Below are positions 15,964-25,807 of a stretch of 31,995 nt of DNA, piece after piece. The translations under genes and the position numbers were made by a program. Origin of the DNA: a virus. The notes beneath the pieces are model-generated. The model was not told where the DNA came from. It did not search any database and saw only the letters and a program-made list of their open reading frames with translations. How positions within the stretch are numbered: position 1 is the first letter of the stretch; every line of letters starts with the position of its first letter. The DNA is taken from the IMG/VR virus record IMGVR_UViG_3300030380_001603, positions 1 through 31,995 of that record; one strand, written 5' to 3'.

Positions 15964-16082
15964 TGAAACACATTTGTAATATAATATATATTTTGACATT
16001 TGGTAAAGTTTGTTTTGGCAAATGTAAGGTTTGTAAAAAAAGCTGTGAAACTGCTGAAACTGCTGAAACTGCTGAGTCTTAA
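15963..16082 (+). CDS. 39-aa Cys-rich miniprotein with Glu-Thr-Ala repeats
   Basis: ATG at 15963 sits in TAATG with the previous gene and the stop at 16080-16082 sits in TAATG with the next gene, so this short frame is precisely embedded. It encodes a hydrophobic N-terminus, five cysteines (FGKVCFGKCKVCKKSC) and a C-terminal (ETA)3. The three ETA units are also three tandem copies of the GAAACTGC motif. An o-spanin lipoprotein is possible, given the i-spanin candidate next door, but there is no clear lipobox. Confidence 0.5.
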   Translation: MKHICNIIYILTFGKVCFGKCKVCKKSCETAETAETAES

Positions 16083-19116: not shown

Positions 19117-19338
19117 ATGAAAAAGAGAAGTAAATTTGAGAAGTATTTACGCCTAAACGGTGTAACCAAAAGAAGATTCAGCGAGATAACAGGACTGAAA
19201 GGTCAGAGTATAAACAAGTACATTGATAACCCTACTCTGCTGAGGTTGAGCCACCTGAAACTGCTATCTGAAAGCGATGAGGGTAAGTATCACGAAATGG
19301 ATGAAGTTAAACTAGTAAATGAGATAAACAAATGCTAA
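19117..19338 (+). CDS. Helix-turn-helix DNA-binding protein (73 aa)
   Basis: Residues ~10-45 (LRLNGVTKRRFSEITGLKGQSINKYID) follow the helix-turn-helix pattern of small Cro/XRE-type proteins: the RRFSEITGL helix and the GQSINKYI recognition helix. The rest is acidic. It could regulate the early region. It overlaps the next gene by seven bases. Confidence 0.6.
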   Translation: MKKRSKFEKYLRLNGVTKRRFSEITGLKGQSINKYIDNPTLLRLSHLKLLSESDEGKYHEMDEVKLVNEINKC

Positions 19339-19754
19339 ATAGTGTTGACAGGGAGGAAGCTCTTAAAAAGGCAATATGCGTAACGTATAACGTCAGTTAC
19401 GAAGATTTGTTGGGTAAGAGCCGGAAGATGACTATAATGAATGGCAGGAGAATGTTCTTCTACTTTATGCGTAAACATTTCGGTGGCACGTATTGGGGTA
19501 TGGGTAAAAGGTACAACGTACACCACGCTACAATCATGCACCACGTTAAAAGTATGGAGGGTTACTTGAGCTTCAACAAAAGAGAGATGATAAACTACAT
19601 AAAAGTAAGAGATTATGTCTTTGAACAAAATAGTGAAGTAACACTATCTGAGGAACTTGACCTCCTAAAACAAGAGCAGTCTTTGATTAATGATAGAATC
19701 AATGACATACAAAACGAATTACAATTATTAAAATCATTAGAAAATGGAAATTAA
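19332..19754 (+). CDS. DnaA domain IV-like DNA-binding protein
   Basis: A 140-residue protein. Residues ~38-78 match DnaA domain IV: an initial helix (RRMFFYFMRKHF), then TYWGMGKRYNVHHATIMHHV, equivalent to the DnaA signature helix-turn-helix. The C-terminal half is coiled coil (LSEELDLLKQEQSLINDRI). There is no ATPase domain, so it would bind DnaA-box-like DNA or act with host DnaA rather than open an origin alone. It lies next to the SSB-like gene. The DNA-binding fold is confident; the role is inferred. Confidence 0.7.
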   Translation: MLNSVDREEALKKAICVTYNVSYEDLLGKSRKMTIMNGRRMFFYFMRKHFGGTYWGMGKRYNVHHATIMHHVKSMEGYLSFNKREMINYIKVRDYVFEQNSEVTLSEELDLLKQEQSLINDRINDIQNELQLLKSLENGN

Positions 19755-23874: not shown

Positions 23875-24072
23875 ATGAGCATAAATATATACGACAGGAA
23901 AGATATGAGGGGTGGTGGCTATGCCAAACGCAAATTCACCCTTGAGGAAGCTGAGTCAATACGCAAGGAATACGATGCAGGTGGCATAAGCCAAACGAAG
24001 TTAGCCAAAAAGCATGGTGTATCTCAGCCAATAATCAATATGATTCTACGAGGGAAAACGTATAAAAATTAA
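23875..24072 (+). CDS. Small helix-turn-helix protein (65 aa)
   Basis: Residues ~20-60 form a clear resolvase/Fis-like helix-turn-helix: KFTLEEAESIRKEYDAG, ISQTKLAKKHGVSQPIINMI, ending in a basic RGKTYKN. The N-terminus is Gly-rich. It is the last gene before the G-quadruplex gene's promoter. A transcriptional switch for this promoter is plausible. Confidence 0.7.
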   Translation: MSINIYDRKDMRGGGYAKRKFTLEEAESIRKEYDAGGISQTKLAKKHGVSQPIINMILRGKTYKN

Positions 24073-24090
24073 TTTTTTTTTAAAAAAAGT

Positions 24091-24120
24091 TTGGTATATT
24101 AAAAAATAGTTTTATCTTTG
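24091..24120 (+). promoter_or_regulatory. Early promoter before 24144
   Basis: TTG at 24091-24093 and TATCTTTG at 24113-24120 with a 19-base gap. The leader shares AAAACTAAAACA before ATG with the 20594 leader. Confidence 0.75.
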
Positions 24121-24143: not shown

Positions 24144-24530
24144 ATGGGATATGGAGGTAGTCAGGGGGATAAGGGGGATAGGGGAGTAGGGGGGTACTTC
24201 GGCACTCCAATGATAAACAAATTGAATACTAACGAATTTAACTATAACAAAATGATTACAAAGAAAGAAGCAAAGCACTTATTAGAAAAGATGAAAGAGG
24301 ACAACAGAATGTTCTCACTTGAGTTCATTAAGAAGGATGGCACTAGAAGAACTATGTTGGCTAGGTTCAACGTAACAAAGTATCTGCTAGGCGAAGGCAG
24401 AAGGTATGACCCTGCCAACTACAACCTGATGACTGTGTTCGATATGAACAAGGGTGCATACAGAACAATACCATTGGATAGACTCCTGTGGGTTAGAACA
24501 AAAGGCAAGAGATACTATGTAAGTCCATGA
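24144..24530 (+). CDS. SH3-like conserved early protein with Gly-rich N-terminus
   Basis: A 128-residue protein. The first ~20 residues (GYGGSQGDKGDRGVGG) are encoded by the G-quadruplex motif. From ~37 on (MITKKEAKHLLEKMKEDN, FIKKDGTRRTMLARFNVTK, NLMTVFDMNKGAYRTIPLDR) it looks like a small beta barrel seen in Bacteroidota phages. An internal ATG at 24252 would give the folded part alone, with the G-rich run as untranslated leader. The start at 24144 fits the shared leader better. Function unknown. Confidence 0.55.
   Translation: MGYGGSQGDKGDRGVGGYFGTPMINKLNTNEFNYNKMITKKEAKHLLEKMKEDNRMFSLEFIKKDGTRRTMLARFNVTKYLLGEGRRYDPANYNLMTVFDMNKGAYRTIPLDRLLWVRTKGKRYYVSP
24164..24194 (+). promoter_or_regulatory. 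G-quadruplex-forming motif at 5' end of early gene
   Basis: G-runs of 5, 5, 4 and 6, with loops ATAA, ATA and AGTA, lie 20 bases after the start codon. This meets the standard four-tract G-quadruplex pattern and would form in both non-template DNA and mRNA. It is striking in an AT-rich genome. Confidence 0.75.
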
Positions 24531-24566
24531 TTGAATTGTTTTTGATTAATTTTTGTTTGTAAATAG

Positions 24567-24599
24567 GGTGGTGGAATTTTTCTGCCACCTTATTTTTTT
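24567..24599 (+). terminator. Rho-independent terminator
   Basis: GGTGGTGG (24567-24574) pairs with CTGCCACC (24582-24589) over eight pairs, including two G-T, with a loop of 7 and then TTATTTTTTT. The 3' arm CTGCCACC recurs twice in the repeats downstream (24612, 24627), so the 5' arm could also pair there. Confidence 0.8.
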
Positions 24600-24607
24600 A
24601 TGACCAC

Positions 24608-24654
24608 GAAACTGCCACCGTTGAAACTGCCACCGAAACTGCCCTGAAACTGCC
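24608..24654 (+). repeat. Cluster of four GAAACTGCC motifs
   Basis: GAAACTGC starts at 24608, 24623, 24635 and 24646 (spacings 15, 12 and 11), each followed by C. Two copies extend to GAAACTGCCACCG. It is the densest non-coding cluster of a motif seen 18 times in the window. Confidence 0.8.
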
Positions 24655-24816
24655 ATTGACCTGCCGAATTTTTTATACTGACCACCCCCTCCCCTACCCT
24701 ACTTAGTGTTTTTTTTACACTAACTAATTTACAGCTGTAAAAATACAGCACGTAAAAAAAAATATTATTTTTTATTTGGATATTAAAAAAGTTATTTGTA
24801 TGGGCTAAAACTTTTT

Positions 24817-25204: not shown

Positions 25205-25807
25205 ATGAAAAAGCAAAGTAAATACGAATTAAGAAAAATAAGTAAAAACCTAGATTACTTTTTTAATCTAGCGACAGACGAACAAATAAAAGACGGCAAA
25301 CGATGGTATAAAGAGTCTAACGAATTTTGCCAAGAGGTAGCAAAGGAATACAACACCGACCCGTTAAAGGTTGCTTCAGTCGTTTCTGCATTAAGTCCAC
25401 GTAATAGATGGGAACAAAATTTAAAAGATGCAAAAAAAGTATTTCAGGCCATAAGCGAAGGCAAAGAAGCAAACGACATAAAAGTTTGTACTTTTAATAA
25501 GAATAAATTTAAAGCTTTTGAACTAGCTAAAGGCAATATTTTTATAACTGAAGATAGCCCCAAGACGTTTAATTTTGTGCGAAACATTGCCCACCTTTGC
25601 CCTGCATCGGTTACAGTTGATATATGGCATCTCAGAGCGTGTTTAAAGCAGTTTAAAAGCATAGGTAACGCACAAATTGGCAAAGTAGCCTATAATCAAA
25701 TAAAAGCTCTTACAATCAAAAAAGCTCATAAATTAGGGTTGACAGGTTTTGAATATCAAGCCATAATATGGATAACCGCACAAAATAACATAGATAAATT
25801 AAGATAA
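25205..25807 (+). CDS. Conserved phage protein (DUF7178-like, possible HhH-GPD relative)
   Basis: A 200-residue protein with WYKESNEFCQEVAKEYN, VASVVSALSPRNRWEQNLKD, ELAKGNIFITEDSPKTFNFV and VTVDIWHLRACLKQF. The SP-N-W-N block and a VD-W pair resemble a phage/plasmid family that in turn recalls helix-hairpin-helix glycosylases. No catalytic residue can be assigned with confidence. It ends in TAATG with the next small gene. Confidence 0.55.
   Translation: MKKQSKYELRKISKNLDYFFNLATDEQIKDGKRWYKESNEFCQEVAKEYNTDPLKVASVVSALSPRNRWEQNLKDAKKVFQAISEGKEANDIKVCTFNKNKFKAFELAKGNIFITEDSPKTFNFVRNIAHLCPASVTVDIWHLRACLKQFKSIGNAQIGKVAYNQIKALTIKKAHKLGLTGFEYQAIIWITAQNNIDKLR

Follow-up and report, generated by a model that had tools for sequence, protein, structure and literature searches.

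The WYL_2 gene in the analysed stretch of DNA, 31,995 nucleotides of an IMG/VR virus record (hereafter the window), begins with an array of G-runs that very probably functions as a nucleic-acid element. The reading that we prefer, at a rough probability of 0.4, is that this array is a cis element at the start of the WYL_2 cistron, in which selection has acted on the G5 and G6 runs and not on the Gly-rich peptide that they encode. With about the same caution, we infer that the tract would work mainly through the mRNA, on WYL_2 expression. The feature that is conserved among the relatives is the array of long G-runs itself; a strong four-run quadruplex is a common but not a universal outcome.

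In the window, which has a GC content of 36%, the array reads GGGGGATAAGGGGGATAGGGGAGTAGGGGGG, with the loops ATAA, ATA and AGTA between its runs. It starts 20 bases from the A of the WYL_2 start codon and is in frame with the open reading frame. The array forms a canonical G-quadruplex motif (four runs of at least three Gs, loops of 1-7 bases), and it is the only four-run G3+ motif that appeared when both strands of the window were scanned. Relaxing the pattern to three nearby G4 runs gave this position again as the sole match, against an expectation of 0.01 per shuffled window. The run lengths of 5, 5, 4 and 6, the loops of 3-4 bases and the distance to the ATG had been described correctly in an earlier, sequence-only reading of this DNA. 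That reading had also placed an early promoter just upstream; a match to the Bacteroidetes-type consensus is indeed present, whereas "early" is deduced from the neighbouring genes. In Flavobacterium, the corresponding -7 box is TAnnTTTG (PMC9723704). Promoter and leader of the window are near-identical in loci L001 and L002, and related versions occur in most other loci. A hairpin like the one that may overlap the last G-run is found in most relatives, with L025 and L026 bearing a different stem, AGTGCTT/GAAGCACT. A search against known RNA families returned no match above the gathering score. All feature coordinates are collected in Table 1.

Table 1 Features of the window around the WYL_2 gene, and sites of the strand-biased octamer
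Feature	Position	Strand	Basis or remark
HTH gene c1, 65 aa, conserved upstream neighbour	23875..24072	+	PF01381 HTH_3, 1e-5
Bacteroidetes-type promoter TTTG-N19-TATCTTTG	24090..24120	+	consensus match
WYL_2 ORF, 128 aa, G-run leader included	24144..24530	+	PF10902, 3.4e-10
G-run array 5-5-4-6, potential G-quadruplex	24164..24194	+	sequence, RNA fold, nucleotide-level conservation
Possible short hairpin GGGGTA-CTTCGG-CACTCC, overlapping the last G-run	24191..24208	+	inspection, RNA folds without G4
Alternative start codon directly after the tract	24210..24212	+	ATG/TTG in 19/19 tract sequences
Internal ATG (Met37) put forward by the sequence-only reading	24252..24254	+	invariant
Intrinsic terminator 3' of WYL_2	24561..24595	+	terminator scan
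Four GAAACTGCC repeats, after the terminator	24607..24654	+	repeat search
G-rich tract GGGTAGGGGAGGGGGTGG, downstream of WYL_2	24682..24699	-	sequence
Octamer GAAACTGC, window sites, part 1	4855, 5894, 11962, 16047-16072, 17436, 19257, 20105	+	
Octamer GAAACTGC, window sites, part 2	21821, 23155, 23521, 24608-24653, 28176, 28577	+	

The gene that begins with the array lies at the end of an early-type operon. Its match to the WYL_2 profile spans residues 44-115 and scores 40.5 bits against a curated cut-off of 26.7. The protein may adopt the WYL fold, an Sm-like SH3 barrel; its model reached a mean pLDDT of 63.6. Its top Foldseek matches, the WYL proteins PafBC and BrxR, are weak (E about 0.02); the best PDB matches are WYL proteins as well, none of them with an E value below 0.001, and a CapW-ssDNA structure is among the weak structural matches. 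Residues 1-33 have a pLDDT below 50 and no predicted fold, in agreement with the sequence-only reading, which saw a tail without apparent fold in the residues encoded by the array.

To identify relatives, protein searches of IMG/VR were used, which gave 27 related loci, and a DNA pattern search added two partial ones, L055 and L066. The phages of this family are uncultured marine phages. A nucleotide search of known phages gave no match, and WYL_2 had only distant matches in known phages, below 60% identity. No host was identified, as GTDB genomes searched with WYL_2 and the terminase contained no relatives. The loci share a conserved gene order, in which early genes are followed by the HTH gene c1 (present in 28/28 clustered loci), a Bacteroidetes-type promoter, zero to two small genes, the G-tract and WYL_2, and then by a terminator-like hairpin, GAAACTGCC repeats, in most loci a pyrimidine tract, variable genes and the terminase. 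The hairpin plus T-run recurs in relatives at the place of the terminator, and the repeats were found wherever the 3' flank was covered by sequence. The downstream G-rich tract has as its equivalent in most relatives a pyrimidine tract of variable length, even where the upstream G-tract is missing. Pairing between the upstream G-tract and the downstream C-tract was rejected, as each occurs alone and the terminator lies between them. Two further features of this 3' region were observed. The variable part between WYL_2 and the terminase encodes a DUF7178 protein (PF23802, 1.5e-34; 25205-25807 in the window), seen in 12 of the 28 clustered loci. In L024 and L019/L020, inverted repeats of the form TTAGTGT...ACACTAA recur (as many as four times in L024) in the interval from the pyrimidine tract to the genes that follow, some 465-560 bases beyond the WYL_2 anchor.

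The position in front of WYL_2 behaves as a slot. No gene occupies it in the window, where the shared promoter leader is followed by the ATG and, almost at once, by the tract. L001 has a WYL_2 core that is 99% identical to that of the window at the DNA level, and it shares the promoter leader and the tract with the window, but here the two are separated by a whole gene, c21. In other loci, c30, c17, other genes or none are found between related promoters and the tract. Judged by this gene order, the G-tract is the 3' edge of a slot in which various small genes follow one promoter. The idea that the tract end and the hairpin form a mobile repeat was dropped, as their occurrences outside WYL_2 loci were unrelated terminator-like hairpins and one unrelated GC-rich gene.

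The strongest evidence for a nucleic-acid element comes from the way in which the G-runs are kept. In 26 of 30 loci, representing 19 distinct tract sequences, the WYL_2 gene begins with two to four G-runs, nearly all of them G5-G6; in the remaining four (L021-L024), the runs and the encoded residues are missing together. The 20 distinct 57-base upstream sequences contain 74 G-runs (43 G5, 21 G6, seven G4, two G3 and one G7), separated by 22 different short spacers. Four G3+ runs within the 57 bases occur in 14/20 of these sequences and three runs in 6/20. The canonical four-run motif is therefore not the invariant feature, since four loci lack the tract and a fourth run is missing from about a third of the upstream sequences. 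Among the Gly codons of the leader, 75 of 112 are GGG, as compared with 2 of 128 in the gene's own core and 6.1% in the window. With the residues held fixed and synonymous codons drawn according to codon usage in the window, P for the observed count of G4+ runs was 0 to 0.004 in each tract sequence, with L025/L026 as the exception (P 0.015); the related sequences are not independent samples. Relatives that keep the residues without the G-runs, which would have contradicted a role of the runs, were looked for and not seen; the opposite was found. By the GGG bias of the leader, the G-runs are thus very probably conserved at the nucleotide level and not for the encoded peptide.

The tract is nevertheless compatible with translation. 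In 19/19 tract sequences, the WYL_2 frame is open through the tract and at least one other frame has a stop, and from this pattern the tract is usually translated as well. In loci with a gene in front of WYL_2, the stop codon of that gene is found near the WYL_2 ATG where the tract starts; such an arrangement suggests that the two genes are coupled. Six loci (L009-L011 and L013-L015) have no ATG before the tract and retain it all the same; here it appears to be an untranslated leader. The sequence-only reading had proposed that the internal ATG at 24252 bypasses the tract. The 15 codons between 24210 and 24252 have 3, 4 and 10 variable sites at codon positions 1, 2 and 3, respectively, and so look translated, which makes it unlikely that 24252 is the sole start. 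A better candidate is the codon at 24210, which is ATG or TTG in every tract sequence. In all four tractless loci it is CTA, and as these come from few lineages, the pattern is a hint and not proof.

When G-quadruplexes were allowed in RNA folding, the predicted stabilisation in the window was 21.8 kcal/mol. Of 15 tract-bearing loci folded in this way, 12 showed an energy drop of 3 to 31 kcal/mol. L011, L016 and L025, each with three runs in the 57 bases scored, showed zero predicted gain. These three loci and the tractless L021-L024 count against the preferred reading.

Several other explanations for the tract have to be weighed. That the Gly-rich, collagen-like peptide (GDKGDRG) is the conserved entity would agree with the frame being open in every tract and with Gly being present in every version of the leader. 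However, codon use is far from the synonymous expectation, the residues between the glycines are not conserved, four loci do without the peptide and no fold is predicted for it; on codon use in particular, conservation of the tail at the protein level was rejected, and this explanation is now very improbable. If the tract were a simple sequence without function, kept by slippage during replication and by recent shared ancestry, repeated units such as GGGGGATA and their variable copy number would be accounted for. This explanation does not sit well with runs that remain G5-G6 and in frame while about half of the fourfold sites of the core differ between the window and most relatives, and we consider it rather improbable.

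More weight, although still well short of even odds, goes to the possibility that the tract is a boundary for gene exchange at the DNA level, with the G-tract and the first conserved WYL_2 codons as shared homology and perhaps a G-quadruplex that promotes recombination as at Neisseria pilE, where a transcribed G-quadruplex is reported to be needed for pilin recombination (PMC3547852). The changing first genes between related promoters and the tract are as expected from such exchange. Two loci, L015 and L003, look like recombinants whose switch point lies between the tract and the early part of WYL_2: L015 joins an HTH gene and a WYL_2 gene from an L008-like phage to the promoter and G-tract of an L011-like phage, its right breakpoint falling between the last tract spacer and the first WYL_2 codons, and L003 likewise switches directly after the tract. 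Pairwise identities are weakly correlated between the HTH gene and WYL_2 (Spearman 0.23) and strongly between WYL_2 and its own 3' region (0.80), by which measure the latter two share one history and WYL_2 and the HTH gene much less so. Linkage at the tract junction is, however, only the second lowest of ten junctions. The lowest, between c0 and c1, has no G-tract and is at least as decoupled (Spearman 0.02); the tract is therefore not needed for shuffling. Exchange alone also leaves unexplained why the G-runs, and not the spacers, resist mutation. The tract may thus mark an exchange boundary, and it is a candidate, not an established, cause of exchange. Alternatively, the tract could act on DNA during transcription or replication, its non-template G clusters favouring R-loops or polymerase pausing, possibly in connection with an origin close to the repeats that follow WYL_2. 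In the window, the non-template strand carries the clusters some 40-75 bases downstream of the -7 box, the repeat array and the opposite-strand G-rich tract follow the WYL_2 gene, the positive GC skew falls near 24.5 kb, and the gene at 19332-19754 has a DnaA_C-like product, in which the C-terminal DNA-binding domain (PF08299) was the one DnaA domain reported. In loci with a first gene, though, promoter and tract are about 250-600 bases apart, the upstream and downstream tracts occur independently, and the origin is putative. This role appears rather unlikely.

The preferred reading, an mRNA-level cis element, would operate as follows. The tract is placed where the WYL_2 cistron begins, which is directly behind the promoter in the window and, in other loci, behind an exchangeable first gene whose end falls at or inside the tract. 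In the mRNA, the runs would stack into a G-quadruplex, or into a competing hairpin, at the start region, and this structure would set WYL_2 output, either directly or through coupling to the preceding gene. Leader RNA G-quadruplexes are reported to change bacterial translation in reporter tests, and can raise it (PMC11087576). More speculatively, the WYL_2 protein itself might read the G-run element; such autoregulation is conceivable because the WYL fold family includes ssDNA-binding regulators, as reflected in the weak CapW-ssDNA match. The computed results appear to fit RNA-level and DNA-level selection alike. A natural G-quadruplex slot junction that at once limits or couples WYL_2 translation, closes the frame of the preceding gene and provides a shared edge for exchange seems unlikely.

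A separate observation concerns the octamer GAAACTGC, which occurs 18 times on the plus strand and never on the minus strand of the window (0.7 expected), in coding and intergenic DNA alike. Across the window and six related phage records, 84 of 84 copies are on one strand per record. No excess of the octamer was seen in Croceibacter phage P2559Y or Cellulophaga phage phi17:1. In P2559Y, one strand is strongly enriched in overlapping octamers derived from a CTCCTAAGGCGG-like word, with strand counts of 11 to 0 for CTCCTAAG. One possibility is that GAAACTGC is an oriented, Chi-like signal.

Natural conserved G-run elements in phage coding sequence under nucleotide-level selection seem to be rarely documented, and a narrow search of the open-access literature found no comparable phage element. 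With its natural four-run, three-run and tractless variants, this short element makes the RNA and DNA roles directly testable. The mobile regulatory cassettes of T4-type phages are units of a promoter plus a stem-loop between early genes. The tract resembles them as a regulatory sequence between swappable early genes; it differs in being based on G-runs, tied to WYL_2 and without copies elsewhere in the window. To the WYL regulators PafBC, BrxR and CapW, the encoded protein is linked by its WYL_2 score and by weak matches of its model to their WYL domains, but it is small and no separate HTH domain was found in it. Closer to the tract itself are the published leader RNA G-quadruplexes, which likewise have G-runs at the start region and a hairpin nearby; they sit before reporters and were tested in vitro and in E. 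coli, whereas the element of the window is natural, conserved and usually translated (PMC11087576). The pilE G-quadruplex of Neisseria gonorrhoeae is also a G-rich element in transcribed DNA beside frequent gene exchange. At pilE, silent copies serve programmed gene conversion (PMC3547852), whereas the family of the window exhibits mosaicism between phages, for which a driving role of the tract would be hypothetical.
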